Assembly: GCF_019139815.1 (NCBI RefSeq) | Contig: NZ_CP077079.1 | Span: forward strand, 2,542,001 to 2,606,000 | Direction: 5' to 3' | Source of the DNA: Pseudomonas asgharzadehiana | GTDB taxonomy: Bacteria; Pseudomonadota; Gammaproteobacteria; Pseudomonadales; Pseudomonadaceae | Length of the DNA stretch: 64,000 nt | Shown: piece by piece, positions 26,090 to 48,008 of the stretch | How the letters are laid out: each line of letters opens with the position of its first letter | Numbering within the stretch: position 1 is the first letter of the stretch | Program-made: the position numbers and the translations under genes | Notes under the pieces: generated by a model | The model's input: the letters and a program-made list of their open reading frames with translations, nothing else | What the model was told of the DNA's origin: nothing | Databases searched by the model: none

Positions 26090-26142
26090 GGGGTTTTCCT
26101 GGTCGTGAACAAAGAAAACCCCGAGGTTAAGCCACCGCTTCA

Positions 26143-26325: not shown

Positions 26326-27495
26326 ATGAAAAAGCCAAACCCGCTCCTTGAAGACCTCAAGTCCATCCTGCCGACCATCGCGGCCAATGCTGCGCAGGCT
26401 GAACAGCACCGCCAGGTGCCCGCCGAGAATATGGCGTTGCTCAAGGGCATCGGCCTGCATCGTGCGTTCCAGCCCAAGGCGTTCGGCGGCATGGAGTTGT
26501 CGCTGCCACAGTTTGCCGACTGCATCGCCGCGCTCGCCGGGGCATGTGCCAGTACCGCCTGGGCCATGAGCTTGTTGTGCACCCACAGCCATCAGCTGGC
26601 GCTGTTCTCGGCCACCCTGCAACAGGAAGTCTGGGGCACCGACCCGAACGCCACGGCGAGCAGCAGCATCGCGCCCTTTGGGCGTACCGAAGAGGTCGAG
26701 GGCGGCGTGCTGTTCAGCGGTGAGATGGGCTGGAGCAGCGGCTGCGACCATGCCGAGTGGGCGATTGTCGGTTTCCGCCGGCCCAATGCCGAAGGCACGC
26801 AGGACTATTGCTTCGCCGTGCTGCCGCGCAGTGACTATCAGATCCGCGACGACTGGTTTGCCGCCGGCATGAAAGGTAGCGGCACCAAGACCCTGCTCAT
26901 CGACAAGGCCTGGGTGCCGGAGCACCGTATCCAGAAGGCCAAGGACATGATGGAGGGCAAGTCCGCGGGCTTTGGCTTGTACCCCGACAGCAAGGTGTTC
27001 TACTCGCCGTACCGTCCGTATTTTGCCAGCGGCTTTTCCACCGTGAGCCTGGGCGTCGCCGAGCGCATGCTCGATGTGTTCCGCGAAAAGACCAAGACCC
27101 GCGTGCGCGCCTACACCGGGGCGGCGGTCGGCGCGGCCACGCCGGCGTTGATGCGGCTGGCCGAGTCGACGCATCAAGTGGGCGCCGCGCGTGCGTTTCT
27201 TGAAAAGACCTGGGCCGATCATGCCGAGCACAGTGAGCAGCAGCGCTACCCCAGCCGCGAAACCCTGGCGTTCTGGCGCACCAACCAGGCGTACGCCACC
27301 AAGATGTGCATCCAGGCGGTGGATCGCCTGTTTGAAGCCGCCGGCGGCAATGCCTGGTTCGAACACAACGAGATGCAGCGCCTGTTCCGTGACTCGCACA
27401 TGACCGGCGCCCATGCCTACACCGACTACGACGTGTGCGCGCAGATCCTCGGCCGCGAGCTGATGGGCCTGGAGCCCGACCCGAGCATGATCTGA
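26326..27495 (+). CDS. 4-hydroxyphenylacetate 3-hydroxylase, oxygenase component (C2 type)
   Basis: A 389-aa flavin-dependent monooxygenase with the acyl-CoA dehydrogenase fold, resembling the C2 component of Acinetobacter baumannii p-hydroxyphenylacetate hydroxylase. Family stretches include the N-terminal helices ending in QPKAFGGMELSLPQFAD, the flavin-binding WSSGCDHAEWAIVGF, GMKGSGTKTLLIDKAWVPEHR and the C-terminal GGNAWFEHNEMQRLFRD. It uses reduced FMN or FAD from the next gene's product to make 3,4-dihydroxyphenylacetate, the substrate of HpaD. It is not homologous in look to the enteric HpaB. The gene lies 12 kb from the hpa operon. Confidence 0.82.
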   Translation: MKKPNPLLEDLKSILPTIAANAAQAEQHRQVPAENMALLKGIGLHRAFQPKAFGGMELSLPQFADCIAALAGACASTAWAMSLLCTHSHQLALFSATLQQEVWGTDPNATASSSIAPFGRTEEVEGGVLFSGEMGWSSGCDHAEWAIVGFRRPNAEGTQDYCFAVLPRSDYQIRDDWFAAGMKGSGTKTLLIDKAWVPEHRIQKAKDMMEGKSAGFGLYPDSKVFYSPYRPYFASGFSTVSLGVAERMLDVFREKTKTRVRAYTGAAVGAATPALMRLAESTHQVGAARAFLEKTWADHAEHSEQQRYPSRETLAFWRTNQAYATKMCIQAVDRLFEAAGGNAWFEHNEMQRLFRDSHMTGAHAYTDYDVCAQILGRELMGLEPDPSMI

Positions 27496-27540: not shown

Positions 27541-27551
27541 GGGAGTCTTGC

Positions 27552-28484
27552 ATGTCTGAATCGACCTTCGACCCACGCGCCTTTCGCCGCGCCTTGGGCA
27601 ACTTTGCCACCGGCGTGACCGTGGTCACCGCCGCCGACGCCAGCGGGCGCAAGGTGGGCGTCACCGCTAACAGCTTCAACTCCGTGTCGCTCGACCCACC
27701 GTTGGTGTTATGGAGTATCGACAAACGCTCCAACAGCCATGAAGTGTTCGAGCAGGCCAGTCATTTCGCGGTCAACGTGCTCGCGGCGGACCAGATCGAC
27801 CTGTCGAACAATTTTGCCCGGCCCAAGGACGATCGCTTCGCCGAGATCGAGTACCAGCCAGGCGAGGGTGGCGCGCCGGTGTTCGCCGATTGTTCGGCGC
27901 GGTTTCACTGTGAGAACTACCAGCAGGTGGACGGCGGCGATCACTGGATCATGATCGGCAAGGTGGTGGCGTTCGATGACTTCGGGCGTGCGCCGCTGCT
28001 CTATCACCAGGGCGCCTACTCGATGGTCCTACCCCACACGCGCATGACCAAGCGTGACGACAGCCAGCCGCCGAGCAGCCATTTCCAGGGGCGCCTGAGC
28101 CACAACCTGTATTACCTGATGACCCAGGCGGTGCGCGCCTACCAATCGGCCTACCAACCCCGGCAACTGTCCACCGGCCTGCGCACCAACGAGGCGCGCA
28201 TGCTGATGGTGCTGGAGAACGACGCCCGGCTGAGCGCCGGCGACCTGCTACGCGAGGTGGCTATGCCGGTGCGCGAAATCGACGAAGCCGTGGCCAACCT
28301 CAAGCGCAAGGGGCTGGTGAGCGACGACGACAGCGGCGTGCGCCTGACCGCTGCGGGCGTGGAGCAAACCGAAGACCTGTGGGCGATTGCGCGCGAACAG
28401 CAGGACAAGGTATTCGCTGAGTTCACTGAGGCGCAGATCGAAACGTTCAAGACGGTATTGAAGCAACTGATCCGTCATTGCTGA
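27552..28484 (+). CDS. 4-hydroxyphenylacetate 3-hydroxylase, flavin reductase component with MarR-like tail (C1 type)
   Basis: A 310-aa two-domain protein. Residues 1-165 are an HpaC-like flavin reductase (FRRALGNFATGVTVVTA, GVTANSFNSVSLDPPLVLWSI). Residues about 190-310 form a MarR-like winged-helix region (ARMLMVLENDARLSAGDLLREVAMPVREIDEAVANLKRKGLVS). This is the architecture of the Acinetobacter C1 reductase, whose tail inhibits the enzyme until 4-hydroxyphenylacetate binds. It feeds reduced flavin to the upstream oxygenase. The start at 27552 lies behind GGGAG; a frame from 27435 overlaps the oxygenase gene and is not credible. Confidence 0.88.
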   Translation: MSESTFDPRAFRRALGNFATGVTVVTAADASGRKVGVTANSFNSVSLDPPLVLWSIDKRSNSHEVFEQASHFAVNVLAADQIDLSNNFARPKDDRFAEIEYQPGEGGAPVFADCSARFHCENYQQVDGGDHWIMIGKVVAFDDFGRAPLLYHQGAYSMVLPHTRMTKRDDSQPPSSHFQGRLSHNLYYLMTQAVRAYQSAYQPRQLSTGLRTNEARMLMVLENDARLSAGDLLREVAMPVREIDEAVANLKRKGLVSDDDSGVRLTAAGVEQTEDLWAIAREQQDKVFAEFTEAQIETFKTVLKQLIRHC

Positions 28485-29905: not shown

Positions 29906-30194
29906 TTTTATAATCCCCAGCATGGTTAGGTGGAGGGCGCATTAAGTGGCTGGGAGCGGGGGAAGTCTTTCATCTGCGTGCCAGGTAATTGATCCTGCCC
30001 GCCAAGCGGTGTGCCGTGGCAGACAGCAACAAAAGTGACGGCACACATGGGCAAGACGCTCGGCGCGTTGGAGGCGCACAGTGATTTTCGCTCGAGGCCG
30101 TTTCGATCAGGGACTGGCTGGGGAGGGCTTCAACGCCGGCTCCTTGTACGGCTCGATGCATCCAATCAGAAATCCGCTTTCGAGGATCCGCACC

Positions 30195-31694
30195 ATGTCG
30201 ATCAATGACCGGCTCACGCAGCATTTGAAACGAGGCAGCGTCGGCTTTCCGACCGCGCTGGCCAGCACCATTGGCCTGATCATGGCCAGCCCGGTGATTC
30301 TCACCGCGACCATGGGTTTCGGGATCGGCGGCAGCGCCTTTGCGGTGGCCATGCTGATTGCGGTGGTGATGATGCTGGCGCAGGCGACCACCTTCGCCGA
30401 AGCCGCCGCGATCCTGCCGACCACCGGCTCGGTCTACGACTACATCAATTGCGGCATGGGCCGTTTTTTTGCGATCACCGGCACCTTGTCGGCGTACCTG
30501 ATCGTGCATGTGTTTGCCGGTACCGCTGAAACCATTCTGTCCGGGGTCATGGCGCTGGTGAACTTCGAGCACCTCAACACCCTGGCGGAATCCGCCGGGG
30601 GCTCGTGGTTGCTCGGGGTCGGCTTCGTGGTGGTGTTCGGCATCTTGAATGCCTTTGGCGTCAGCGCCTTCGGCAGGGCCGAGATCATCCTGACCTTCGG
30701 CATGTGGACCACGTTGATGGTGTTCGGCGTGCTGGGCCTGATCGCGGCGCCGGCGGTGCAACTGGAGGGCTGGTTCGGTGTGTCACTGGTGGGCACCGAC
30801 GTGGTCACCGTCCTGTCATTGGTAGGCATGGCGATGTTCATGTTTGTCGGTTGCGAGTTCGTCACGCCGTTGGCTCCGGACTTGCGCAATTCGGCCAGGG
30901 TGATGCCCAAGGCCATGCTGTTGGGCTTGCTCAGCGTGGCCACCTGTATGTTTATCTACGGCGCGGCGATGAAGCGCCAGGTCGAAAACGTGTTGCTGGA
31001 TGCCGCCACCGGCGTGCACCTGCTGGACACGCCGATGGCGATTCCGCGCTTTGCCGAGCAGGTCATGGGGCAGGTCGGCCCGCTGTGGCTGGGCATCGGT
31101 TTTTTGTTTGCCGGTGCCGCCACCATCAACACGCTGATGGCGGGCGTGCCGCGCATCCTCTATGGCATGGCCGTGGACGGCGCGCTGCCCAAGGTGTTCA
31201 CCTACCTGCACCCACGCTTCAAGACGCCGTTGCTGTGCATCCTGGTGGCGATGCTGATTCCGTGCCTGCACGCCCTGTGGTTGGGCGGCAACGCTGACAA
31301 CATCATGCATCTGGTGCTGGCGGCGGTGTGTGCCTGGAGTTTCTCGTACCTGCTGGTGACGCTGTCGGTGGTGATCCTGCGCATTCGCCGTCCTGATCTG
31401 CCACGGGCCTATCGCTCGCCGTTCTTCCCGTTGCCACAAATCCTGTCCAGCATCGGCATCTTGCTCGGGATGTGGTTCATCACCCCGCCGGGCATGAACC
31501 CCGCCGACATCTACGTGCCGTTCGGCGTGATGCTGGCGATTACCGCTGCCTACGCGCTGTTCTGGACATTGGTGGTGCAAAAGGTCAATCCATTCAAGCC
31601 GGCGTCGGTCGAAGACGTGCTGGCCAAGGAGTTTTCCCATGAGCCTGGCAACCTTTACAACGAGCCTTTCGAGCATGCTGCAAAAGCTGTCTGA
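30195..31694 (+). CDS. APC-superfamily amine/amino acid permease
   Basis: A 499-aa integral membrane protein with about 12 hydrophobic segments of the amino acid-polyamine-organocation superfamily. N-terminal GFPTALASTIGLIMASPVILTATMGFGIGGSAF and the following AEAAAILPTTGSVYDYINCGMG are family landmarks for the TM1-TM2 region. The start at 30195 follows GAGGATCCG; upstream frame codons give no membrane topology. Its place between the hydroxylase porin and feaR suggests uptake of an aromatic amine such as tyramine or phenylethylamine. The last 56 nt overlap the following gene. Confidence 0.85.
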   Translation: MSINDRLTQHLKRGSVGFPTALASTIGLIMASPVILTATMGFGIGGSAFAVAMLIAVVMMLAQATTFAEAAAILPTTGSVYDYINCGMGRFFAITGTLSAYLIVHVFAGTAETILSGVMALVNFEHLNTLAESAGGSWLLGVGFVVVFGILNAFGVSAFGRAEIILTFGMWTTLMVFGVLGLIAAPAVQLEGWFGVSLVGTDVVTVLSLVGMAMFMFVGCEFVTPLAPDLRNSARVMPKAMLLGLLSVATCMFIYGAAMKRQVENVLLDAATGVHLLDTPMAIPRFAEQVMGQVGPLWLGIGFLFAGAATINTLMAGVPRILYGMAVDGALPKVFTYLHPRFKTPLLCILVAMLIPCLHALWLGGNADNIMHLVLAAVCAWSFSYLLVTLSVVILRIRRPDLPRAYRSPFFPLPQILSSIGILLGMWFITPPGMNPADIYVPFGVMLAITAAYALFWTLVVQKVNPFKPASVEDVLAKEFSHEPGNLYNEPFEHAAKAV

Positions 31695-32259
31695 GCTGTT
31701 CAGTGCGCAACGCGCCCCGGCCGGCTATCGGCCCGGGGTCACGCTTGAATACCTGCGGCGCAACCTTGGCCTGGCAAGTTTTACCTCCACCGGGCCGGCC
31801 AGTGCGGTGTTCAGCCTGGACGCCAGTGGCCTTGAGGTGACGATTGTCGAGCGCACCGAAGCGCAACTGCTGATGCACCTGGTGATGACCGAGTTCAGGA
31901 TTCAGTTGCCCGCTTCACAGCAGGGCAGCGCACGCTGGGACCTGCACCACCGCGGGTCGATTCGGCGCACGGGGCTGGCGTGTCGGCAACGGGCGGGCGA
32001 AGCGACTTTGCTGGCCCGGCTGGAGGCTGCGTTGGCGGGTGATGCGTCGTTGCACGAAGCCCTGATGGCGCTGGATTTCAAGCACCTGCGCATCGAGTTG
32101 CAGGCACAGCAATGGCGCGTCCGGCTGGAGCACATGGGCGGCAGCGAAGTGGTCAACCGCATGCCGGCGTTTCGTCGTTACATCGCCCTGAGCCCAGCCC
32201 AGCGCGCCAGTCTGTTCACGGTGCTGGCGGGCTTGCAGCGAGTGCTGAGCGGGTTGTGA
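31639..32259 (+). CDS. Unknown protein overlapping the permease (DUF3156-like)
   Basis: A 206-aa soluble protein with no signal peptide, membrane segment or cofactor motif. It begins inside the permease gene (56-nt overlap), preceded by AAGGAGTTTTCCC, a good ribosome site. Conserved-looking parts are PGVTLEYLRRNLGLASF near residue 30 and a basic middle (HHRGSIRRTGLACRQRAGE). I associate it tentatively with a family of unknown function found beside amine permeases. Such tight coupling suggests it helps the permease or acts on the imported amine; no function can be assigned. Confidence 0.75.
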   Translation: MSLATFTTSLSSMLQKLSELFSAQRAPAGYRPGVTLEYLRRNLGLASFTSTGPASAVFSLDASGLEVTIVERTEAQLLMHLVMTEFRIQLPASQQGSARWDLHHRGSIRRTGLACRQRAGEATLLARLEAALAGDASLHEALMALDFKHLRIELQAQQWRVRLEHMGGSEVVNRMPAFRRYIALSPAQRASLFTVLAGLQRVLSGL

Positions 32260-32370: not shown

Positions 32371-33333
32371 ATGAGCACCTATCAATCTGCGCACCATGGA
32401 TTGGAAACCTGGACTCGGGATTTGCGCGCGGCCTGCGGCCATTTCGACACGGAACTGGCGTTTAACCGCTCACTGTTTATCGGTGAGGTGTCCAAGCGCG
32501 AGCGCGGTGGCCTGTCACTGGCCAACCTGCGCACCAATGCCGGGCTGATCAAGCGCGAACGACCCAACGCCGATCACGATAGGGACCAGCATTGTTTTCT
32601 CGTCAGCCAACGCAGTGGCTATTGCCAGATCACCCAGAACGGCCAGGTGGTGCAACTGGCCCCCGGCGACATGCTGCTGATGGACTCCACGGGCTCGATC
32701 GAGATCAGCCCGTTTGGCCTGATCGAACACGCCTCGCTGTCACTCTCGCGCAATGAAGTGTGCAAGCAACTGGGTGGCGCCGCGAAAACCTTCGGCAAGA
32801 TCTCGTCGAGCAAGGCCTGTGGCCGCATGCTCCATGTGCTGATGGACCAACTGTGCCGGGAAGGGTTGGGCGACCAGGACCCGAACGAGGAGGCGCAGGC
32901 CCTGCAAGCGGCGTTTGTATCCTTGCTCGGTTCCGCCTTCGAAGCGCATGACGCGCCCGGTGAGGGCATGGCCTGCCTGCAGGGCAACAACCTGCGCAGC
33001 TATGTGCAGAAAGTCATCGACGAGTCGCTGACCCAGCCCGGCCTGAGCCCCGTGGGCCTGGCCAGTCGCTTGAATATCTCGGTGCGGCATTTGTACCGTT
33101 TGTTCGAAGAACAGGACGACAGTGTCTGCCGCTACATCCAGCGTGCGCGGCTCAAGCGCAGCGCGGATGACTTGACCAACCCGTTCCTCAAGAGCGAGTC
33201 GATCACCTCGATTGCCTACAAGTGGGGCTTCACCGACTCGGCGCACTTCAGTCGCTCGTTCAAGAAGCAATTCGAGCTGTCGCCCAAGGATTTTCGTTCG
33301 ACCCATCTGCAACAGGCGGTGGGCGCGGTTTAG
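32371..33333 (+). CDS. feaR: AraC-family activator, FeaR type
   Basis: A 320-aa regulator with an N-terminal AraC_binding_2 sensor domain (RDQHCFLVSQRSGYCQITQNGQ, then the cupin-like APGDMLLMDSTGSIEIS) and a C-terminal double helix-turn-helix (about residues 215-315: LASRLNISVRHLYRLFEEQ and ITSIAYKWGFTDSAHFSRSFKKQFELSPKDFR). In enteric bacteria FeaR activates feaB and tynA in response to aromatic aldehydes from amines. The feaB-like gene and amine permease nearby match that job. No tynA-type copper amine oxidase is in the window. Confidence 0.83.
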   Translation: MSTYQSAHHGLETWTRDLRAACGHFDTELAFNRSLFIGEVSKRERGGLSLANLRTNAGLIKRERPNADHDRDQHCFLVSQRSGYCQITQNGQVVQLAPGDMLLMDSTGSIEISPFGLIEHASLSLSRNEVCKQLGGAAKTFGKISSSKACGRMLHVLMDQLCREGLGDQDPNEEAQALQAAFVSLLGSAFEAHDAPGEGMACLQGNNLRSYVQKVIDESLTQPGLSPVGLASRLNISVRHLYRLFEEQDDSVCRYIQRARLKRSADDLTNPFLKSESITSIAYKWGFTDSAHFSRSFKKQFELSPKDFRSTHLQQAVGAV

Positions 33334-33361
33334 GTGGCCTTGTTTCACCTCAGGCAACATC

Positions 33362-33413
33362 ACGGCTCGGGAGCAGGCAACTACCCAACTGATGCCCGCG
33401 ATCCAACTGTGGG
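33362..33413 (+). repeat. Dispersed ACGGCTCGGG repeat, second copy
   Basis: ACGGCTCGGGAGC, then AGGCAACTA, ACTGATG and CCGCGATC, aligning by eye over about 45 nt with 21388-21430. It occupies the gap between feaR and the convergent SDR. Confidence 0.4.
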
Positions 33414-33429
33414 TTATGCCTGACAGGCC

Positions 33430-34200
33430 TTACTTCACTTCGGGCAACGTCGACCCGCCATCCACAATGATGGTCTGCCCGGTGATGTAGCTCGCCAGGT
33501 CCGAGGCCAGAAACAGCATGGCCCCGGCAATGTCCTGCGGCGCGCCGAGGCGGCCGAGTGGCACGCGGCTGGCGATGTCGGCGTTGACCTGAGCATCGCC
33601 CAGGTTGCCCATGGCCGGCGTGGCGATCATCCCCGGTTCCACGCCGTTGACCCTTACCCGGTTGCCGGCCAGTTCCAGTGCGGCACTGCGGATAAACCCG
33701 TTGACCCCGGCCTTTGACGCGGCGTAGTGGCTCAGCCCCGGATAGGCGACCCGTGGCCCGGTGACCGATGAGGTGACCAGCACGCAACCGCCGCCTTGAC
33801 GCTGAAACATCGGCAAGGCGGCCTGGGTCAGCCAGAACAGCGCCGAGAGGTTGACCGCCAGCGTGCGCTCCAGCACGGCCGGGGTGATCTGCTCGAACGC
33901 GGTCAACGGAAAATAGCCAGCGTTGTGCACCAGGATGTCCAGGCGGCCCCAGTCGCGCTCGATGCCTTTGATCCCGTCGAACACCGCCGTCGCCTCGGCC
34001 AGATCGAGTTCGATGGCTTGGACCCTGCACCCCCGCGCAGCCAATTCGTCGGCCAACGCCTGGGCTTGCGCCCGACGCAGGTCAACGATCATCACGCGCG
34101 CGCCACGCAGCGCAAACGCTTCGACAACGGCCCGGCCGATGCCTTGCGCGCCGCCGGTGACCAGCACGCTTTTGCCGCTGAAATCGAGGTCTTCAGACAT
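33430..34200 (-). CDS. SDR-family oxidoreductase of the moa-like cluster (second SDR)
   Basis: A 256-aa classical SDR: cofactor loop TGGAQGIGR near residue 14, an acidic VDLR after the second strand (NAD preference), VHNAGYFP, catalytic Ser in VTSSVTG, YAASK, and a C-terminal IIVDGGSTLPEVK. The start at 34200 overlaps the preceding SDR stop by 8 nt. It would oxidise a secondary alcohol to a ketone or the reverse. Its neighbours suggest a side-chain alcohol of an aromatic amine, such as the beta-hydroxyl of octopamine or synephrine, but this is a guess from context. Confidence 0.85.
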   Translation of the reverse strand: MSEDLDFSGKSVLVTGGAQGIGRAVVEAFALRGARVMIVDLRRAQAQALADELAARGCRVQAIELDLAEATAVFDGIKGIERDWGRLDILVHNAGYFPLTAFEQITPAVLERTLAVNLSALFWLTQAALPMFQRQGGGCVLVTSSVTGPRVAYPGLSHYAASKAGVNGFIRSAALELAGNRVRVNGVEPGMIATPAMGNLGDAQVNADIASRVPLGRLGAPQDIAGAMLFLASDLASYITGQTIIVDGGSTLPEVK

Positions 34201-34993
34201 AGGGCTGCTCCATATGGGCGTAGGCCAGGGTCGGTACATCGACGATGCTCGAACCACCGTCGGCGACCACGCTGGCACCGGTGATGATCGAGGCGTCGGG
34301 GCCGGCCAGGAAGCGGCATACCCTGGCAATTTCTTCGGCGCTGGCGGGACGCCGCAACGGTACGTCGGCGCACACACGGGCGTAGGCCTGCTGCAGCGTA
34401 TCGCCGTGGAAGTTCATCAAGGGCTGCATCTCCTCGTCGGCCATCGGCGTGGTGACCCAGCCAGGGCACACGGCGTTCACTCGCACGCCACGCGGCCCGT
34501 AGTCCCGCGCCAGTGAGCGGTTAAGCCCGAGCAGTGCGTGTTTGGCGGTGGTGTAGCCGCACACCTCGGGCCCGGCGGCCAACGACGCGATGGAGCCCAG
34601 CAGCACGATGCACCCGGCGCTCTCGATCAGCAGCGGCAGGCAGGCGCGGGCGCTGTAGAACGCGCTGTCCAGGTTGCTGCGCAGCGCCGCTACCCAGGTG
34701 GCCGGGCTGGTTTGGCTGGCGCTGCCCACGCCATGCCCACCGGCACAGGCCAGCAGCACATCGAGTCGGCCATGGTGTGCGCGAATCTGTGCGACGAACC
34801 TGTCCCACGTATCCGGGCAGGCCGCGTCGCCGACCAGCACCAGGCCACCGGTTTGTGCGGCGACCTGCTCCAATGGCTCGCGACGCCGGCCGATCAGCAC
34901 CAGGTTGGCGCCTTCGGCAGCATACAGCCGCGCGCAGGCGGCACCGATGCCCGTGCCGGCACCGGTGATGACCACGGTTCGGGCGTCAGGCAT
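34193..34993 (-). CDS. SDR-family oxidoreductase of the moa-like cluster (MoaE-like position)
   Basis: A 266-aa SDR with TGAGTGIGAA at residue 10, the basic GRRR after the second strand (possible NADP preference), ACAGGHGVG in the NNAG position, Ser in LLGSIAS, and YTTAK as Tyr-x3-Lys. In Klebsiella the moaE-moaF pair of the monoamine regulon has a reductase-like gene with MoaF, and this gene directly follows MoaF with an 8-nt overlap on each side, so MoaF, this SDR and the next are one coupled unit. It is not a close copy of the second SDR. Confidence 0.85.
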   Translation of the reverse strand: MPDARTVVITGAGTGIGAACARLYAAEGANLVLIGRRREPLEQVAAQTGGLVLVGDAACPDTWDRFVAQIRAHHGRLDVLLACAGGHGVGSASQTSPATWVAALRSNLDSAFYSARACLPLLIESAGCIVLLGSIASLAAGPEVCGYTTAKHALLGLNRSLARDYGPRGVRVNAVCPGWVTTPMADEEMQPLMNFHGDTLQQAYARVCADVPLRRPASAEEIARVCRFLAGPDASIITGASVVADGGSSIVDVPTLAYAHMEQPYV

Positions 34994-35807
34994 CGGGATA
35001 CTCCGTATGGTTGAGGACCTGGCAGTAGGAACTGACCGGAAAGTTCGACAGCTCATCGAAGGACGCACCGGCGTAGCCGAAAATCTTGCCGTCGCTGCGG
35101 TGCTGTTGCAGATCGATCAACACCAGGCCGAGGGTCGGGATGATCTTTTCGCGCCAGACGAACAGGTACAACTGGTCGGCAATCTTGTAGTAGTGGCAGC
35201 GATCGGTATCGCACAGGCCCTGTTCGACACCCTTGATGCACTGCCAGGAGTAGAACTGATCGTTCAGGTAAATGTGCTCGTAGACCTCGCTGGGGCTGTA
35301 GCGGTACAGGTTGCGCAAGCCGGTCAGTTCCTGGGTCGGTGCGTGCGGGCACTGGCCAGCCTGCCAGGGTTGATTCAGGCTGCCCTGTAGAAATTCCACG
35401 TGCACCGAGGTCAGGGCCTTGCCGGCCAGCGCGCGGCTGTACAGACCTTGTTCGGTTTGCTCGCGGCTCGGCATGCTGCCGATCACGGCGGTGAACGACG
35501 ACGTGGCGGTATCCAGCACCAGGCTGATCGACCAGGCTTGCCCGGCTTCGTGCTTGATGAAATCGACCAGGTACAGGCCCGGACGCACCGAGGTGGCGCG
35601 GTAGGCGGCCGCACCGCTGGAGTGACCATCGGCGGCGTTCCAGTGCAGCGTGTCGGTTTCAAAGCGGTGCTCGATCTGCCAGCCGTTGGCGAAGTACAGC
35701 GTGAACGTCTTGCCGTTGAGGTCGGCCAGGTTGGGCAGGATAAAGGCTTCAGGGGCGAAACCGTCGGCAAGGGCGCCTACGGTGATCCAGTCGGATGGGG
35801 TGGTCAT
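34986..35807 (-). CDS. moaF: MoaF-family protein (monoamine regulon)
   Basis: A 273-aa soluble protein whose two halves look alike, each with a lipocalin-like strand pattern: N-terminal LNGKTFTLYFANGWQIEHRF...YLVDFIKHEAGQAWSISLVLD and C-terminal YRYSPSEVYEHIYLNDQFYSWQCIKGVEQGLCDTDRCHYYKIADQLYLFVWREKIIPTLGLVLID. This matches the MoaF family, first found in the Klebsiella monoamine regulon and of unknown biochemistry; a calycin-type ligand pocket is likely. The start at 35807 is chosen because the upstream frame lacks family features. It heads the MoaF-SDR-SDR unit downstream of a LuxR regulator. Confidence 0.72.
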   Translation of the reverse strand: MTTPSDWITVGALADGFAPEAFILPNLADLNGKTFTLYFANGWQIEHRFETDTLHWNAADGHSSGAAAYRATSVRPGLYLVDFIKHEAGQAWSISLVLDTATSSFTAVIGSMPSREQTEQGLYSRALAGKALTSVHVEFLQGSLNQPWQAGQCPHAPTQELTGLRNLYRYSPSEVYEHIYLNDQFYSWQCIKGVEQGLCDTDRCHYYKIADQLYLFVWREKIIPTLGLVLIDLQQHRSDGKIFGYAGASFDELSNFPVSSYCQVLNHTEYPDA

Positions 35808-35892
35808 TGCATGGCTCCACGGGGTTGAGTTGACAACCCGGAGCATGCGGTGGGGAAGGGCGCGCGCCTATCAACCGAATGGTTGACCCCGC

Positions 35893-36552
35893 TTAAAGAA
35901 ACAGCGCCGCCACCAGTTCGGTGCGGCTGCTGACGCCTGTTTTGCGAAACAGGTGAATCAGGTGGGTCTTGATGGTGGGCAGGCCGACGTCCAGCGCCTG
36001 GGCCAATTGTTTGTTGCTCGCGCCTTGGCGAAGCAACCAGGCGATCTGGCGCTCCTTGGGGGTAAGCCCGGCCAACCCGTCGTCTGTGGGCTGCATGTTA
36101 GCCACGGCCATTTGCAGCATCACCTGCAAGGCATTCAACTGGGCCAACTGGTCGAGGGTGAACACCCCTTGTTCAGCCGTGCGCAGCAGCGAGATGGCGG
36201 CCTGGGGCTGGTCGGCGCGATGGGCGACGATCTCCACCACATCGACCACCCCGTAGCGCGCCAGAAAGTCGCGGTAGCGGCGGCTGTCACGCAGCGGCTG
36301 CCGGGCCATGGCCAGCCCCAGCGGCACCACGGTGAGCCCGGTGGACAGGCAGTTGCGCGGCTGCAACGGATCGAATTGGCGGTAGTTGTCCAGGTAATCG
36401 CGGTGCATCTCACCGCTCATGCCCAGCAGCCTGAAATCACGGGCTTGCAGGTGGCGGTCGACGCAATAGAACGCCGCCTGGCTGGCGGGTACGAGTTGGG
36501 TGAAAGCCTGCAGGCAGTGGCCGGCGACTTCCTGGGCGGGGATGGCGTGCAT
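35893..36552 (-). CDS. LuxR-type regulator of the moa-like cluster
   Basis: A 219-aa protein with a C-terminal LuxR/FixJ helix-turn-helix (residues about 155-215: GLTPKERQIAWLLRQGASNKQLAQALDVGLPTIKTHLIHLFRKTGVSSRTEL) and a 150-residue N-terminal sensor that shows neither a receiver aspartate nor the usual autoinducer-binding tryptophans. MoaR, activator of the Klebsiella monoamine regulon, is also LuxR type, and this gene sits directly upstream of moaF (85 bp), so it is a good candidate for the same role. A strong terminator ahead of it isolates it from the cupin gene. Confidence 0.8.
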   Translation of the reverse strand: MHAIPAQEVAGHCLQAFTQLVPASQAAFYCVDRHLQARDFRLLGMSGEMHRDYLDNYRQFDPLQPRNCLSTGLTVVPLGLAMARQPLRDSRRYRDFLARYGVVDVVEIVAHRADQPQAAISLLRTAEQGVFTLDQLAQLNALQVMLQMAVANMQPTDDGLAGLTPKERQIAWLLRQGASNKQLAQALDVGLPTIKTHLIHLFRKTGVSSRTELVAALFL

Positions 36553-36571
36553 GGTCGGTTACCTGCGCCGG

Positions 36572-36601
36572 AAAAAACGCTGCCGGCACACGCCGGCAGC
36601 G
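36572..36601 (-). terminator. Strong Rho-independent terminator after the cupin gene
   Basis: Minus strand: perfect 10-bp stem CGCTGCCGGC / GCCGGCAGCG around a 4-nt loop, followed by six T (36577-36572). It is 8 nt after the cupin stop (36609) and 20 nt before the LuxR start, so the oxidase-cupin transcript ends here. Confidence 0.85.
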
Positions 36602-36608
36602 GGAGCGA

Positions 36609-36974
36609 TCAGCCTACCGCAAAATAGTGCTTCACGAAGCTCTCGCTGACCACGTCCCACAGCACCGGTGTGCCTTTGGTCACGAACCAGCTGTCGCCGG
36701 CCTTGTAGCGGGTGCTCTGGCCGGTGCTTTCGTCGGTCAGTACCACTTCGCCGGTGACCACGGTGGCCTGTTCGGCGAACGGGTAGACCATGCGGAACTT
36801 GCCTTGGGTGGTGCCGAAATAGGCACTGCTGACCGGGTCGGTCGGGGCGCCGAAGGTCATCTTGCCGAAGGCCTTGACCTCGCCTTCGAGGATCTCGGAG
36901 CCGAGGTCGGCAACCGTGCCCCAGGGGTCGAGCTCCGATAATTGAATGTCTTTCTTCAGGGGGGTAACGGGCAT
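36609..36974 (-). CDS. Small cupin-domain protein (EutQ-like)
   Basis: A 121-aa single-domain cupin of the cupin_3 group that includes EutQ-type and ureidoglycine-related proteins. The conserved core is PFAEQATVVTGEVVLTDESTGQSTRYKAGDSWFVTKGTPVLWDV; His ligands of classical metal cupins are largely replaced, so catalysis is doubtful. The start at 36974 follows AGGAGAACCGCC. It lies 32 bp after the FAD oxidase and is followed by the terminator, so the two form a bicistronic unit; such oxidase-cupin pairs are common in amine catabolism. Confidence 0.82.
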   Translation of the reverse strand: MPVTPLKKDIQLSELDPWGTVADLGSEILEGEVKAFGKMTFGAPTDPVSSAYFGTTQGKFRMVYPFAEQATVVTGEVVLTDESTGQSTRYKAGDSWFVTKGTPVLWDVVSESFVKHYFAVG

Positions 36975-37006
36975 GGCGGTTCTCCTGTGAATGAAACAGC
37001 GGGGGC

Positions 37007-38305
37007 TCAACGGCGACCGTTGAAGTAGCCCGACAGTTGGTGAAGGCTTTTGCCGGCGGTGAGCAGCAGCGGGCGGATATGGTCTTTGCCGAGGATCTGT
37101 GCGTGTTTGACCGAGCTGATCAGGTCATAGCGCGAAGAGCCTTCGCTCATGCCCTCGGCCAATACCTTGCAGATAATGTGGCTGGGCGTGACCCCGAAGC
37201 CGGCGTAGCCCTGCACGTAAAACGCGTTGGGGCGACCGCTGAGCGTGCCGATCTGCGGGAACAGGTTGGCCCCGGTCGCCATCGGCCCGCCCCAGGCCAG
37301 GTCGATCCTCACGTCCTTGAGGTACGGGAAAATCTTCAACATCAGGTTGCGGTTCCAGGCCTTGAGGTCCAGCGGGATGTGCTCGACAAAAGGCGTGGCG
37401 GCGCCGAACAGCAGGCGGTTTTCGCGGGTGACGCGGTAGTAGTCGATCACCGGGCGAATGTCGCTGTAGGCCCCGCGTATAGGGCTGATACGGTTGATCA
37501 TCTCGTCCGACAGCGGTTCGGTCATCAGTTGGAAGGCGTAGGTGTTGACGGTGGTCTGGTGCAACTCGGGTTCAAGCTTGTTGAGGAAACTGTCGCAGGC
37601 CCACAGCAACTTGGCGGCCCTGACCGAACCACGGCCGGTGCGCACGGTGATGCGCTCGCCATAGCTGATTTCCAGGGCCGGGCTGTGCTCGAAGATGCGC
37701 ACGCCATGCCCGGCCAACGCCTTGGCTTCGCCCAGCAACAGGTTGAGCGAGTGCACATGCCCGCCGCCCATGTGCAGCAACGCGCTGCTGTAGGCGTCGG
37801 AACCAATGATCTGCTTGACCTCGGACCCCGCCATGAAGCGGATTTCGTCCTTGGTGTTGATGGATTTGAAGTCCTTCTCCCAGGCGCGCAGGGTTTTTTC
37901 CTGGCGGGCATTGAAGCCCATGTAGCCGTAGCCGTGGCAGAAGTCGGCGTCGATGGAATATTTGGCGATGCGGTCCTTGATGATGCCGGCGCCCAGCTCG
38001 CTGATTTCAAAGATCTGGCGCAGGCCTTCGTCACCGACTTGCTGCTTGATCTTTTCCAGGTCATGGCCGATCCCCGCCATGATTTGCCCGCCATTGCGGC
38101 CCGTGCCACCGAAGCCCAGGTAGCGCGCCTCAAGCACCACGATGTTGGTGATGCCTTTTTCGGCGAGTTCCAGCGCGGTGTTGATGCCGGAGAAACCACC
38201 ACCAATCACCACCACGTCGGCGTCTACGTCCTGTTCGAGGGTCGGGAAGCTGAGGTTGTATTTTTTGGTGGCCGAATAGTAGGTGGGCGTTTCGATATTA
38301 ATCAT
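37007..38305 (-). CDS. FAD-dependent amine oxidoreductase (DAO/PuuB family)
   Basis: A 432-aa flavoprotein with the FAD-binding VVIGGGFSGINTALELAEKGITNIVVLEA at residues 29-57, the GGTGRNGGQI segment that positions the isoalloxazine, and a C-terminal GYAGFGVTPSHIICKVLAEG. It belongs to the DAO superfamily near gamma-glutamylputrescine oxidase, which deaminates amines to aldehydes with peroxide release. Here it could supply the arylacetaldehyde for the feaB product, or remove an N-methyl group. The start at 38305 is the first giving the N-terminus typical of this group. It is divergent from hpaR paralogue 1 across a TGTTAACTA site. Confidence 0.85.
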   Translation of the reverse strand: MINIETPTYYSATKKYNLSFPTLEQDVDADVVVIGGGFSGINTALELAEKGITNIVVLEARYLGFGGTGRNGGQIMAGIGHDLEKIKQQVGDEGLRQIFEISELGAGIIKDRIAKYSIDADFCHGYGYMGFNARQEKTLRAWEKDFKSINTKDEIRFMAGSEVKQIIGSDAYSSALLHMGGGHVHSLNLLLGEAKALAGHGVRIFEHSPALEISYGERITVRTGRGSVRAAKLLWACDSFLNKLEPELHQTTVNTYAFQLMTEPLSDEMINRISPIRGAYSDIRPVIDYYRVTRENRLLFGAATPFVEHIPLDLKAWNRNLMLKIFPYLKDVRIDLAWGGPMATGANLFPQIGTLSGRPNAFYVQGYAGFGVTPSHIICKVLAEGMSEGSSRYDLISSVKHAQILGKDHIRPLLLTAGKSLHQLSGYFNGRR

Positions 38306-38500
38306 TGCGCAGCCTGGAAAAGTGAAGGGGAACTCACTGCAGAGCCGGGTTTGAGCTCTATGCTTGTTGGCTGCTATTAGGTGCCTTCCGCGCGTTAGGT
38401 GTCTTGATTCTGTGTGCCGCCGCGCTTGACCGTGGCTGCCACTGAAGCCTGCGTAAGGGTAAAGCTGCACACGGGGGACCGGTGCCGATGCTAGAATCTT

Positions 38501-38516
38501 GTTAATCTGTTAACTA
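38501..38516. promoter_or_regulatory. HpaR-type operator between the FAD oxidase and hpaR paralogue 1
   Basis: GTTAATCTGTTAACTA. The core GTTAATsTGTTAAC recurs at 46375-46388, and TGTTAACTA recurs at 32325-32333 and 46403-46411. The site is 21 nt before the hpaR start, so autoregulation and control of the oxidase are both possible. Confidence 0.55.
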
Positions 38517-38536
38517 AATATGACGTCGACCTTTAT

Positions 38537-38959
38537 ATGCCTCAATTGCGCCAATCCCTGACCCTCAGTTTGCTCCATGCGCGGGAAGCCGCCATGGGGT
38601 TTTTTCGTCCTTCATTGAACCAGCACGGGTTGACCGAGCAGCAATGGCGGGTCATCCGGATCTTGAGCCAGCATCCAGAGCTGGAGATCAATCGCCTGGC
38701 CGAGTTGGCCTGCATCCTCAAGCCAAGCATGACGGGGGTGCTGGTACGCATGGAGGCGGCGGGCATGGTCGAGCGGCGCAAGGCGCACCAGGATCAACGG
38801 CGCGTGCTGGTGCGGCTGGCCGAGAAGGGGCACGCTTGTTTTGCTTCGATGAGCCAGTGCATGGAGGCCAATTATCAGCGCTTGCAAGCGGGGTTTGGCG
38901 AGGAGAAGTTGCAGACGCTTCTGGGTTTGCTCAATGAGCTCAAAACCCTGAAGCGTTGA
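38537..38959 (+). CDS. hpaR: MarR-family repressor, HpaR paralogue 1
   Basis: A 140-aa MarR regulator of the homoprotocatechuate-operon repressor type. The opening SLTLSLLHAREAAMGFFRPSLNQHGLTEQQWRVIRIL and the DNA-recognition CILKPSMTGVLVRMEAAGMVERRKAHQDQRR are diagnostic. An ungapped hand alignment gives about 64% identity to the second copy at 47586. It is convergent with hpaI and divergent from the FAD oxidase, so it may in fact govern the amine cluster while the other governs the hpa operon. No clear ribosome site precedes the ATG. Confidence 0.88.
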   Translation: MPQLRQSLTLSLLHAREAAMGFFRPSLNQHGLTEQQWRVIRILSQHPELEINRLAELACILKPSMTGVLVRMEAAGMVERRKAHQDQRRVLVRLAEKGHACFASMSQCMEANYQRLQAGFGEEKLQTLLGLLNELKTLKR

Positions 38960-42523: not shown

Positions 42524-43381
42524 TCAAACAGGGAAAATGGCGTTGATCTGCCCGGTGCCCGAGCTGCCGAAGGGTTCGGTGATGATCTCGGCGGGCTGGG
42601 TGTAATCCGGCCCGCCAAGCAACCCCAGAAGCATCGCGGTGTCGTGCATCTTGCCTTCGCCAAAACAGTGCTCGGCGTAGTCGGGGAGCATGGCGCAGAA
42701 TTCTTTCCAGCGACCCTGGCGCCACAGCTCCACCACATGCAGGTCGACCTGCTTGTCGAACTCGCGCGTCCAGTTGTGGATATTGGCTTCGGCGTTGCGG
42801 TCGTCGCTGAAGCGGTGCGACAGCGACCCCGAGGCCAGCACCACGACTTTGCGATCGCTCTTTTCGATGGCCCGGCGTACGGCGGCGCCGAAGGTGAAGC
42901 TGTCTTGCAGGCGGTGCCAGGCGCACCAGGCGGCAATCGAGACCACGTTGAGTTTCTGATCGTCCGGCACGCCCATGTGCATGTAGCGCATCGGCACCAG
43001 CGTGCCGTATTCCAGCTCCAGGCTCGGAATGTTGTGGGCCAGGGTACGCACGTCGGCGGCGTTGGCCTCCAGCGCGATCAGCTCGCCCAGCTCCGGGCAG
43101 CCCGGGTACTCGTACTCCATGTTCTTGATGAAGTGCGGCAGTTCGTTGCTGGTGTAGATACCCTTGAAGTGCTCGCCGCTGTTGACGTGATAGGCGCTGT
43201 TGACCAGCCAGTGCACATCGAACACCACGGCGGTATCGGCGCCCAGTTCGCGGGCACGCCGGCCGATTTCCTTGTGGCCGGCAATCGCCGCCTCACGGCA
43301 GCCATGGTGTTTGCCGGGCAGCTCCGACAAATACATCGAGGGGACGTGGCAGATTTTCGCGGCCAGGACGACTTCGCCCAT
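42524..43381 (-). CDS. hpaD: 3,4-dihydroxyphenylacetate 2,3-dioxygenase
   Basis: A 285-aa extradiol ring-cleavage dioxygenase of the type III (LigB/DODA) superfamily that opens homoprotocatechuate to 5-carboxymethyl-2-hydroxymuconate semialdehyde. Characteristic are the N-terminal AAKICHVPSMYLSELPGKHHGCREAAI with metal-ligand histidines, VVFDVHWLVN, and SGSLSHRFSD. The ATG at 43381 follows AGGAGAATC. A CA motif in its leader makes it a point of Crc/Hfq control inside the operon. Confidence 0.95.
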   Translation of the reverse strand: MGEVVLAAKICHVPSMYLSELPGKHHGCREAAIAGHKEIGRRARELGADTAVVFDVHWLVNSAYHVNSGEHFKGIYTSNELPHFIKNMEYEYPGCPELGELIALEANAADVRTLAHNIPSLELEYGTLVPMRYMHMGVPDDQKLNVVSIAAWCAWHRLQDSFTFGAAVRRAIEKSDRKVVVLASGSLSHRFSDDRNAEANIHNWTREFDKQVDLHVVELWRQGRWKEFCAMLPDYAEHCFGEGKMHDTAMLLGLLGGPDYTQPAEIITEPFGSSGTGQINAIFPV

Positions 43382-43431: not shown

Positions 43432-44892
43432 TCAGACGCCCCAGCGTGGAATGTGATGACTGCCCATCGAGATGCACACGTTCTTGATTTCGGCGAACAC
43501 CTCGAAGCTGTACTGGCCGCCTTCACGGCCGGTGCCGGAACCTTTCACCCCGCCGAACGGCTGGCGCAGGTCGCGCACGTTCTGGCTGTTGATGAATACC
43601 ATGCCGGCTTCGATGCCATGGGCCAGACGATGCGCCTTGCCGATGTCCTGGGTCCAGATGTAAGACGCCAGGCCGTATTCGGTATCGTTGGCCAGTTGCA
43701 GGGCGCTGGCTTCGTCCTTGAACGGAATCAGGCAGACCACCGGGCCGAAGATTTCTTCCTGGGCAATGCGCATGTTGTTGTTCACATCGGCAAACACCGT
43801 CGGCTGGATGAACTGGCCTTTGCTCAAGTGCGCCGCCAGGTTGGCCGGGCGCTCCAGGCCGCCGGCGAGCAGGGTGGCGCCTTCTTCGAGGCCGATCTTG
43901 ATGTAGCCGGTGACCTTGTCGTAGTGGGCCTGGGTGATCATCGAGCCGACCTGGGTCTTCGGGTCTTGCGGGTCGCCGACAATCAGGCGTTTGGCGCGCG
44001 CGGCAAACTCGGCGACGAACTGCGGGTAAACGCTTTCCTGGATAAAGATCCGGCTGCCGGCGGTGCAACGTTCGCCGTTGAGCGAAAAAATCGTAAACAG
44101 CGCCGCGTCGAGGGCACGCTCAAGGTCGGCGTCTTCGAAGATCAGCACCGGCGATTTGCCGCCCAGTTCCATGGAGTACTTTTTCAGCCCGGCGGTCTGC
44201 ATGATCTTCTTGCCGGTGGCGGTGCCGCCGGTGAACGAAATCGCGCGCACGTCCGGGTGGCGCACCAATGCATCGCCGGCGGTGGCGCCGTAACCCTGGA
44301 TCACGTTCAGCACGCCATTGGGGATGCCGGCTTCGACGGCCAGGCGCCCCAGTTCGTTGGCGGTCAGCGGTGACAGCTCGGACATCTTCAGCACGGCGGT
44401 ATTGCCCAGCGCCAGGCATGGCGCGGTCTTCCAGGTGGCGGTCATGAACGGCACGTTCCATGGCGAGACCAATGCGCAAACCCCTACCGGTTGGTACAGG
44501 GTGTAGTTGAGCATTTGGTCATCGACCGGGTAGCTGTGACCGTCCATGCGCGTGCAGACTTCGGCGAAGAAATCGAAGTTGTGTGATGCACGTGGAATCA
44601 ACACGTTTTTGGTCTGGTGAATCGGCAGGCCCGTGTCCAGGGTTTCGAGTTCAGCCAGGCGCGGTACGTTCTGTTCGATCAGCTCGCCGAGCCTGCGCAT
44701 CAGGCGCGCGCGTTCTTTGGCGGGGGTGCCGGCCCATTTCGGAAAGGCTTCCTTGGCCGCCGCCACCGCCTGCGCCACTTCCTCGGCGCCGCCGCTGGCG
44801 ACTTCACCGATGGCGTCACCGGTGGCCGGGTTGTAGTTGACGAACACGTCTTTGCTTTCGACCTCACGGCCGTTGATCCAATGGTTGATCAT
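43432..44892 (-). CDS. hpaE: 5-carboxymethyl-2-hydroxymuconate semialdehyde dehydrogenase
   Basis: A 486-aa NAD-dependent aldehyde dehydrogenase. Catalytic Cys is in NGERCTAGSRIF and Glu in MELGGKSPV; PWNVPFMTATWK and FTGGTATGKK form the cofactor site. It oxidises the HpaD ring-cleavage product to the muconate. The start is the ATG at 44892 (AGAGG 10 nt upstream); a TTG three codons before is less likely. It comes 5 bp after hpaG2. Confidence 0.95.
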   Translation of the reverse strand: MINHWINGREVESKDVFVNYNPATGDAIGEVASGGAEEVAQAVAAAKEAFPKWAGTPAKERARLMRRLGELIEQNVPRLAELETLDTGLPIHQTKNVLIPRASHNFDFFAEVCTRMDGHSYPVDDQMLNYTLYQPVGVCALVSPWNVPFMTATWKTAPCLALGNTAVLKMSELSPLTANELGRLAVEAGIPNGVLNVIQGYGATAGDALVRHPDVRAISFTGGTATGKKIMQTAGLKKYSMELGGKSPVLIFEDADLERALDAALFTIFSLNGERCTAGSRIFIQESVYPQFVAEFAARAKRLIVGDPQDPKTQVGSMITQAHYDKVTGYIKIGLEEGATLLAGGLERPANLAAHLSKGQFIQPTVFADVNNNMRIAQEEIFGPVVCLIPFKDEASALQLANDTEYGLASYIWTQDIGKAHRLAHGIEAGMVFINSQNVRDLRQPFGGVKGSGTGREGGQYSFEVFAEIKNVCISMGSHHIPRWGV

Positions 44893-44897
44893 GCTGT

Positions 44898-45668
44898 TCA
44901 AGCCTCTTTACGGGCGTTGAAGAACGCCGCTTCGCTGACAATTCGATTGACCAGGCGGCCTACGCCTTCGACTTCCACCACCACTTCATCGCCGGGCACG
45001 ACGTCGGCCAGGCCTTCTGGCGTACCCGTGGCGATCATGTCGCCGGGCTGCAAGGTCATGAAGCTGGACAGGTATTCGATCAGGTAGGGGATGTCGAAAA
45101 TCATGTCCTTTGTGCTGCCTTCCTGGCGCAGCTCACCGTTGATCCAGGTGCGCAGCCTCAGGTTGCTCGGGTCGGGCACATCGGCCACGTCGATGAGCCA
45201 CGGGCCGACAGGCGTGGTGGCGTCGCGGTTTTTCACGCGCAGGTTGGGGCGGTAGTAGTTTTCCAGGTAGTCACGAATGGCGTAGTCGTTGCACACCGTG
45301 TAGCCGGCCACGTAGTCCAGGGCGTGTTCGCGCTTGACGTTGCGCGCAGGTTTACCGATGACGGCCACCAGTTCGCACTCGTAGTGCATGTAGGCGACGT
45401 TATCCGGGCGCCAGGTCACCTGGTTGTGGCCGGTGTAGGTGCCGGGGGACTTGATGAAGGCCAGCGGCTCGGTGGGCGGCTTGAACGCCAGTTCGGCGGC
45501 GTGGTCGGCGTAGTTCAGGCCCAGGGCGAACATGCTGCCGGTGGCCGGTGGCAGCCACTGGACCTGGTCCTCGGCCAGCAGCCGACCATCGGCCAGGCGC
45601 ACGGCGTTGTTGTCTTCGACATGGGCGAGGTGGACTTCGCCTTCAAATTGGATACGGGCGTGTTTCAT
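44898..45668 (-). CDS. hpaG2: Homoprotocatechuate pathway isomerase/decarboxylase, HpaG2 subunit
   Basis: A 256-aa FAH-fold protein equal to the C-terminal half of enteric HpaG/HpcE. It carries the metal-binding acids Glu97 and Glu99 (HYECEL) and Asp128 (CNDYAIRD). It takes part in decarboxylation of 5-oxopent-3-ene-1,2,5-tricarboxylate and isomerisation of the product. In Pseudomonas the two halves are separate genes, as here: hpaG1 lies 11 bp upstream. Confidence 0.93.
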   Translation of the reverse strand: MKHARIQFEGEVHLAHVEDNNAVRLADGRLLAEDQVQWLPPATGSMFALGLNYADHAAELAFKPPTEPLAFIKSPGTYTGHNQVTWRPDNVAYMHYECELVAVIGKPARNVKREHALDYVAGYTVCNDYAIRDYLENYYRPNLRVKNRDATTPVGPWLIDVADVPDPSNLRLRTWINGELRQEGSTKDMIFDIPYLIEYLSSFMTLQPGDMIATGTPEGLADVVPGDEVVVEVEGVGRLVNRIVSEAAFFNARKEA

Positions 45669-47585: not shown

Positions 47586-48008
47586 ATGGCCAACCCCAGA
47601 CCTTCGCTGACCCTGACCCTGCTGCAAGCCCGTGAAGCCGCCATGGCGTTTTTCCGGCCGGCGCTGAACAAGCATGAACTGACCGAACAGCAGTGGCGGG
47701 TGATTCGCATCCTGCGCCAGCAGGGCGAATTGGAAAGCCATCAACTTGCCCAGCAGGCCTGCATCCTGAAACCCAGCATGACCGGCGTATTGACCCGCCT
47801 GGAGCGCGATGGCCTGGTGCGTCGGCAAAAGTCCAGCCAGGACCAGCGGCGCGTATTCGTCGGCCTCACCGAACGCGGCCAGCAGTGTTTTGTGTCGATG
47901 AGCGAAGGCATGGAAAGCAACTACCGCAAGATCGAAGAACAGTTTGGCGCGGAAAAAATGGAGCAGTTGCTGGGCCTGCTCAACGAGCTGAAAAATATAA
48001 AGCCGTGA
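47586..48008 (+). CDS. hpaR: MarR-family repressor, HpaR paralogue 2
   Basis: A 140-aa HpaR protein of the same length and layout as paralogue 1 (SLTLTLLQAREAAMAFFRPALNKHELTEQQWRVIRIL; CILKPSMTGVLTRLERDGLVRRQKSSQDQRR). It follows hpaA by 171 bp on the same strand and is the one next to the hpa operon promoter, so it is the better candidate for the classical repressor of meta-cleavage genes, released by 4-hydroxyphenylacetate derivatives. The ATG at 47586 begins the conserved region; upstream frame codons are spurious. Confidence 0.9.
   Translation: MANPRPSLTLTLLQAREAAMAFFRPALNKHELTEQQWRVIRILRQQGELESHQLAQQACILKPSMTGVLTRLERDGLVRRQKSSQDQRRVFVGLTERGQQCFVSMSEGMESNYRKIEEQFGAEKMEQLLGLLNELKNIKP

Follow-up and report, generated by a model that had tools for sequence, protein, structure and literature searches.

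What does MoaF do, and which compounds does the gene cluster around it serve? The question is raised by a 64,000-nucleotide stretch of Pseudomonas asgharzadehiana DNA (contig NZ_CP077079.1, positions 2,542,001 to 2,606,000; hereafter the window), in which six minus-strand genes for an FAD-dependent amine oxidase, a cupin, a LuxR-type regulator, MoaF and two short-chain dehydrogenases/reductases (SDRs), here called SdrA and SdrB, lie in the neighbourhood of the hpa genes (Table 1). An earlier note on this DNA had proposed that these genes process β-hydroxylated or N-methylated phenolic amines for entry into the hpa route. What it had observed is confirmed and what it had concluded is partly supported, and the main interest lies in a testable chemistry for MoaF. 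Our overall explanation, to which we give a probability of roughly 0.45, is a moa module for monoamine catabolism whose products enter the homoprotocatechuate pathway, with moaF-sdrA-sdrB serving β-hydroxylated side chains; that the cluster is an aromatic-amine module feeding hpa is, taken by itself, very probable.

MoaF and the phenolic acid decarboxylases

The assignment of the 273-aa protein to MoaF held in a profile search, in which it passed both PF10703 and PF17409 by a wide margin. MoaF is a two-barrel protein whose C-terminal barrel has the fold of the phenolic acid decarboxylases (PADs; PF05870, PadC), and among 40 aligned MoaF sequences, hand-picked from the profile-match lists and the fetched loci, the PAD twin tyrosines and catalytic glutamate stand in register (Tyr168 in 38/40, Tyr170 and Glu220 in 40/40). 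The protein differs from PADs in its two barrels, the N-terminal one of which is poorly conserved, in a score against PF05870 (13.0 bits) that is under the gathering score of 24.6, and in the essential PAD arginine (Arg49 of FDC_Es, Arg41 of PadC), which is replaced by leucine, histidine or valine in all 40 sequences. A relationship between the MoaF C-domain and the PADs is, in our judgement, highly likely, although sequence alone does not prove it; likeness of fold, for its part, does not establish function. As a proof from sequence hhalign had to be rejected, since the C-domain comparison was not significant (probability 0.4%; two SDR alignments used as controls gave 0.07% and 0.15%) and the whole MoaF alignment paired the PADs to the N-terminal domain (21%), which lacks the PAD register. 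In a PDB profile search, a PAD likewise came up no better than E 0.9, next to an unrelated ligase (E 0.99).

MoaF residues 20-148, that is the N-terminal barrel, also align with PADs (hhalign probability 33%), and MoaF may therefore be a PAD-like pair, fused and degenerate on one side. The CrtC/AttH hydratase fold, our initial guess for the nearest relative, was not among the matches listed, which is not evidence against it, and no neighbouring gene pointed to molybdenum cofactor synthesis, after which MoaF is often still named in annotation. A literature search, to which older subscription journals were mostly out of reach, returned, among the matches listed, no paper on the function of MoaF; it had no match at all for octopamine or synephrine dehydratase, and the papers listed on octopamine in bacteria, on FeaR and tyramine in Pseudomonas and on arylsulfatase with monoamine gave nothing on the genes considered here. 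Among the titles cited by PMC4640556 are studies of tyramine oxidase, of arylsulfatase and of a Klebsiella operon regulated by monoamines, and a part of PMC9072122 discusses dopamine sulfate in locusts.

Conservation, variation and the link to hpaD

Neighbourhoods were surveyed in a species-level collection, from which 80 of 81 relatives, all close to the query, were kept as 79 distinct loci; many contigs end early, which affects the neighbour counts, and the locus labels, including the oxidase count, take in some fragments. The gene set of the earlier note proved to be conserved, with moaF-sdrA-sdrB contiguous in 76 of the 79 loci, the oxidase called in 67, the cupin in 66, feaR in 58 and the permease in 57, and with slightly different numbers from tblastn (oxidase 64, feaR 60, permease 56). 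No luxR was found in 19 of the 79, where oxidase, cupin and moaF are collinear and the cupin and moaF matches lie 15-20 bp apart, which argues that all of them serve one pathway.

The proposed tie to aromatic amines and the hpa route is borne out by these neighbourhoods and by genome-wide co-occurrence. The window's genus was sampled with 179 genomes, of which 38 have moaF, 45 an oxidase orthologue (at least 83% identity) and 53 hpaD; hpaD is present in 38/38 moaF-positive genomes against 15/141 others and in all 45 oxidase-positive ones, counts that ignore common descent. The module is therefore tied to the homoprotocatechuate route. Since moaF is found with the oxidase in 35 of 38 genomes, and both are nested within the hpaD-positive set, the pattern points to the oxidase as the core amine step, with moaF as an addition. 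In a second family, hpaD accompanies moaF in 19/21 genomes versus 34/129 others (18/20 versus 35/130 without the weak moaF match G931), again uncorrected for descent. PF17409 matched 11/398 genomes across the phylum, 2/369 across the class (one being the window's own), 9/149 in the Klebsiella-like family, 21/150 in the second family and 2/199 in an alphaproteobacterial order; the labels of groups such as the Klebsiella-like family are ones that we infer.

Between lineages the deaminating enzyme changes and MoaF stays. A copper amine oxidase and a quinohemoprotein amine dehydrogenase subunit were both searched for in the window's genome and neither was found. In the actinobacterium Paenarthrobacter aurescens TC1, moaF has a permease, a copper amine oxidase and hpa genes for neighbours, and in the window's genus three genomes with moaF (L150-L152) are without the oxidase orthologue, two of them having only a 28% relative nearby. 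These three carry a feaR-like gene, DUF3156, a permease, an aldehyde dehydrogenase (in L150 closest to StyD, under its cut-off), a class III transaminase (from a scan for transaminase families that covered L150 and L151), luxR, moaF, an aminomutase-like enzyme and sdrB. The enzyme adjoining moaF in L150 (7828-9210) is a pyridoxal-phosphate (PLP) enzyme like glutamate-semialdehyde aminomutase and close to PDB 5ykr, and another of this kind lies near an alphaproteobacterial moaF cluster (L100:358-1704). In alphaproteobacterial loci, SdrA and MoaF stand with a SnoaL protein, a glucose-methanol-choline (GMC) oxidase and an amino-acid-type ABC importer.

Of the distant loci, 32 of 34 were counted, as the gene caller, trained on the window's genes, missed MoaF in L142 and L149; in the latter, moaF and an SDR were read from the annotation. 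Arylsulfatase, HDAC-type deacetylase or amidase genes occur in 12 of the 32; the three families are unrelated, and their enzymes could release amines that are O-sulfated or N-acylated. Homologues of the window's amidase and major facilitator superfamily (MFS) transporter are present in moaF loci L037, L048, L053, L074, L096, L137, L138 and L141, with amidase pieces at the contig ends of L024 and L027. In L053, L074 and L096 the amidase immediately precedes moaF, both being on one strand; in L137 and L138 one SDR separates the two, and in L141 the amidase is on the other strand. Because a similar set is collinear with moaF elsewhere, the locus interval should extend to the AraC/porin/MFS/amidase set at 48173-52876.

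Two further observations concern the surroundings of moaF. Modules with moaF are found on plasmids in L148 (P. aeruginosa pZM21), L149 (Klebsiella variicola) and L145 (Paenarthrobacter pTC2), in L148 and L149 with annotated transposase genes nearby, so that the module may move between strains. A PAS-type chemoreceptor gene is in the neighbourhood in 26 loci (e.g. L011:16446-17144), and chemotaxis to the amines is possible.

A proposed route and its alternatives

In the route that we envisage, phenolic amines would be imported by the permease, the FAD oxidase, a candidate from its family for tyramine/dopamine-type amines, would deaminate them to arylacetaldehydes, and an aldehyde dehydrogenase would turn these into 4-hydroxyphenylacetate or homoprotocatechuate. 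The moaF-sdrA-sdrB genes would extend this route to side chains that bear a benzylic (β) hydroxyl, of the octopamine, noradrenaline and synephrine type. By analogy, the likeness to PADs would provide a chemical basis for converting β-hydroxylated phenolic amines into 4-hydroxyphenylacetaldehyde: Tyr168 and Tyr170 of the PAD-like barrel would take the phenolate, Glu220, as an acid/base, would help to expel the benzylic hydroxyl via a p-quinone methide, and the resulting enamine (or enol) would yield 4-hydroxyphenylacetaldehyde and the amine. MoaF probably acts on the p-hydroxyphenyl group by quinone-methide chemistry; that it is a benzylic dehydratase we propose tentatively, at slightly less than even odds. 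Rather more doubtful is the fullest form of the idea, namely that MoaF represents a new branch of lyases with the PAD fold, in which the arginine has been replaced and nearby acidic residues hold the ammonium, and is as a quinone-methide benzylic dehydratase the missing gene for octopamine, synephrine and noradrenaline dehydration, joined by sulfatase, deacetylase or amidase genes in the salvage of conjugated biogenic amines.

Both SDRs keep Ser-Tyr-Lys, and after the second strand SdrA has Arg-Arg in 88/88 scorable sequences (of 96) and SdrB has Asp in 88/88 (of 92). By the usual SDR rule, Arg-Arg at this place marks NADP and Asp marks NAD, which would make SdrA NADP-linked and SdrB NAD-linked. 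Such an adjacent pair would suit the stereo-inversion of a benzylic alcohol, SdrB oxidising with NAD and SdrA reducing with NADPH so that the wrong enantiomer is inverted and MoaF receives the right form; alternatively, hydroxymandelaldehyde from the oxidase would be reduced to an arylglycol and then dehydrated by MoaF. The enantiocomplementary ephedrine dehydrogenases, which we take to be SDRs, may be compared. An excerpt of PMC11842280 makes them a precedent for such substrates. Stereo-inversion is nevertheless the weakest step of the scheme, because either SDR can be missing elsewhere, and we regard it as improbable.

It would also be conceivable, if unlikely, that the SDRs act ahead of MoaF, SdrB and/or SdrA oxidising an octopamine-type benzylic alcohol to an aminoketone that other enzymes deaminate or rearrange, and MoaF working later on a phenolic intermediate, as a tautomerase or C-C lyase, or else just assisting the SDR. 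The ephedrine dehydrogenases, which act on similar compounds (PMC11842280, in excerpt), speak for such an order of events. So do the SDR next to moaF in 76/79 Pseudomonas loci and the flanking of moaF by the aminomutase-like PLP enzyme and SdrB in L150-L152. However, several moaF loci have no called SdrA or SdrB, and hpaD is present in every moaF genome of the genus, whereas an aminoketone route more naturally ends in 4-hydroxybenzoate. Passing over amines altogether, the module could serve arylethanols and arylglycols (tyrosol, hydroxytyrosol, hydroxyphenylglycol) or aldehyde detoxification, with the amine genes as mere neighbours, as the SDRs, the GMC oxidase with an aldehyde dehydrogenase in alphaproteobacterial loci, and the 15 of 32 distant loci in which no amine enzyme was called might indicate; we consider this quite improbable, given that in several lineages moaF has an amine oxidase, amine permease, FeaR or transaminase as a neighbour and that the Klebsiella regulator is annotated for monoamines.

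Hardly more plausible is a MoaF that binds or senses phenolic amines in a PAD-like pocket without chemistry, a reading in keeping with the lost arginine and the poorly conserved N-terminal barrel but at odds with a catalytic-position glutamate and twin tyrosines that are kept so consistently. Least probable by far, in our view, is an ordinary tyramine operon (oxidase, cupin, FeaR) with moaF-sdrA-sdrB as an unrelated passenger: 10 of 45 oxidase-positive genomes do lack moaF, but the nested occurrence of moaF, oxidase and hpaD and the collinear cupin and moaF in 19 loci are hard to reconcile with it.

The preferred reading, a moa module extended by moaF-sdrA-sdrB for β-hydroxylated side chains, has its own difficulties. 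MoaF occurs with only SdrA in alphaproteobacterial and Klebsiella loci, with only SdrB in L094, L133, L135 and L136, and with neither called in L095, L126, L127, L131, L139, L140 and L145, where gene calling is incomplete, so that a fixed SDR-MoaF-SDR sequence is unlikely. The alphaproteobacterial clusters may use another substrate, amine oxidases and permeases of the kinds searched were not seen in 15 of the 32 distant loci, a deconjugating enzyme was not seen in 20 of them, and two of the 21 moaF genomes of the second family are without an hpaD match; shared descent is, moreover, disregarded in all the co-occurrence counts. Even so, the PAD-like active site turns MoaF from "unknown" into a chemical proposal that is cheap to test. 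If it is true, a gene is assigned to a step in the bacterial breakdown of octopamine, synephrine and noradrenaline, the PAD fold gains a new natural reaction of use in biocatalysis, and the sulfatases, deacetylases or amidases of some loci, which could release conjugated amines, are explained.

The locus and its counterparts in known systems

Table 1. Features of the window discussed in the text, with coordinates counted from its first nucleotide
Feature	Position	Strand	Evidence
Aldehyde dehydrogenase, StyD/FeaB-like	24602..26092	-	best NCBIfam match StyD, under cut-off
p-Hydroxyphenylacetate 3-hydroxylase, oxygenase	26326..27495	+	NF045920 above cut-off
p-Hydroxyphenylacetate 3-hydroxylase, reductase	27549..28484	+	NF045919 above cut-off
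Amino acid/amine permease	30192..31694	+	PF13520; 65% to Klebsiella locus permease
DUF3156 protein	31639..32259	+	PF11354; gene order as in Klebsiella locus
FeaR, AraC-type regulator	32371..33333	+	NF007243, 390 bits vs cut-off 199
SdrB, NAD-type signature	33430..34200	-	SDR
SdrA, MoaE counterpart, NADP-type signature	34193..34993	-	SDR
MoaF, two barrels, 273 aa	34986..35807	-	PF10703 4e-37, PF17409 1e-48, both far above cut-off
LuxR-type regulator, candidate MoaR counterpart	35893..36552	-	PF00196; 37% to annotated monoamine regulon regulator
Intrinsic terminator 3' of cupin gene	36578..36601	-	10-pair stem (9 G-C), loop 4, T6
Cupin, EutQ-like, 121 aa	36609..36974	-	PF05899
FAD-dependent amine oxidase, DAO family, 432 aa	37007..38305	-	PF01266
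HpaR-type operator box GTTAANNNNTTAAC	38501..38514	.	exact match, oxidase/hpaR promoter
HpaR, MarR-type	38537..38959	+	TIGR02337 above cut-off
HpaD, homoprotocatechuate 2,3-dioxygenase	42524..43381	-	TIGR02298 above cut-off
HpaE	43432..44898	-	TIGR02299 above cut-off
HpaA regulator	46509..47414	+	TIGR02297 above cut-off
Second HpaR	47586..48008	+	TIGR02337 above cut-off
AraC-type regulator of amidase module	48173..49165	+	PF12833; relatives in moaF loci
Porin-like protein (Phenol_MetA_deg)	49233..50165	+	PF13557
MFS transporter	50176..51408	+	PF07690
Amidase, AS family, candidate deconjugating enzyme	51425..52876	+	PF01425; 69-74% to the amidases just 5' of moaF in L074, L096

The six reading frames, all within 33430-38305, are real and correctly read, and they are as first described, including a DAO-type oxidase, overlaps of exactly 8 nt at moaF/sdrA and sdrA/sdrB (ATGCCTGA and ATGTCTGA) and a strong terminator 3' of the cupin gene. 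This terminator is the strongest of six terminator-like sites in 33300-38700, a count that is not above chance, given a mean of 4.1 (standard deviation 2.2) in shuffled sequences; no sigma-70-like promoter was found there in the same scan. For the LuxR-type protein, no NCBIfam model scored above its cut-off. Profile matches also bear out the reported feaR, amine permease and hpa genes as neighbours, the models for HpaD, HpaE, HpaA, HpaR and the 4-hydroxyphenylacetate hydroxylase all being above cut-off. The feaB-type dehydrogenase stands only in part: an aldehyde dehydrogenase like StyD/FeaB is present, and its nearest model, the phenylacetaldehyde dehydrogenase StyD, gives 540 bits against a cut-off of 850. 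Two HpaR paralogues share this one region, and a second hpaD in the same genome, about 190 kb distant (G000:C1:2394999-2395853), is 99% identical, which suggests that some or all of the hpa genes were duplicated recently. An oligopeptide-type ABC transporter gene set (52873-58495), convergent to the amidase gene, was read from the list of open reading frames only.

The HpaR-type operator said to stand before the oxidase is indeed there, the exact GTTAANNNNTTAAC occurring twice in the window (the other copy at 46375-46388, upstream of hpaG-side genes) and not once in 100 shuffles, with one-mismatch copies at 32318 (near feaR), 46396 and 48022. It gives no argument for control of the oxidase as such, because across loci the box mostly follows hpaR: it lies between oxidase and hpaR in 38/38 loci in which hpaR is adjacent and divergent, whereas no box lies within 400 bp of the oxidase either in the 13 loci with hpaR further off, ten of which have it at hpaR, or in the 13 loci with no called hpaR. 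Since the operator mostly stays with hpaR, we rejected HpaR control of the oxidase as a general link between the modules. L061 is the exception: an HbpS-like gene is collinear there with the oxidase, and an exact box precedes that gene, some 0.6 kb upstream of the oxidase. HbpS-like genes (PF03928) lie upstream of oxidase or luxR in 12 loci (e.g. L075:6879-7319).

The combination of genes, which the earlier note could not match to a described pathway, has a counterpart in Klebsiella. In K. aerogenes LR134125.1 the annotated order is aldehyde dehydrogenase, oxidase ("puuB"), cupin, permease, DUF3156, small regulator, HDAC-type deacetylase, MFS, "monoamine regulon transcriptional regulator", atsB, atsA, "MoaE protein" and moaF. 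Identities to the window are 57% for the aldehyde dehydrogenase, 66% for the oxidase, 44% for the cupin, 65% for the permease, 35% for DUF3156, 37% for the LuxR-type regulator, 64% for SdrA and MoaE and 47% for MoaF. By these identities and the annotation, MoaE is an SDR with SdrA, which adjoins MoaF, as its counterpart, and the window holds an extended Pseudomonas form of the Klebsiella moa locus. This form differs from the Klebsiella one in the extra gene sdrB, in adjoining the hpa cluster, in the amidase module and in a LuxR likeness of only 37%. No arylsulfatase (atsBA) or HDAC-type deacetylase was recognised among the window's open reading frames listed at 24-64 kb, where no scan was aimed at them, nor was the genome searched. 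SdrA-MoaF-SdrB stands directly beside hpa genes in four loci of the Klebsiella-like family (L124, L125, L128 and L130). In the Klebsiella locus (L144), DUF3156 and the deacetylase are separated by a higA-like regulator, and atsA is annotated as two pieces.

With the fea/tyn and hpa genes of E. coli the window shares FeaR, an aldehyde dehydrogenase and the 4-hydroxyphenylacetate pathway, and differs in its FAD oxidase, in having no copper amine oxidase and in the added MoaF and SDRs. Octopamine dehydratase and synephrine dehydratase are EC 4.2.1.87 and EC 4.2.1.88, activities for which we know of no assigned gene, and the reaction that we propose for MoaF would, by analogy, be the same as theirs.

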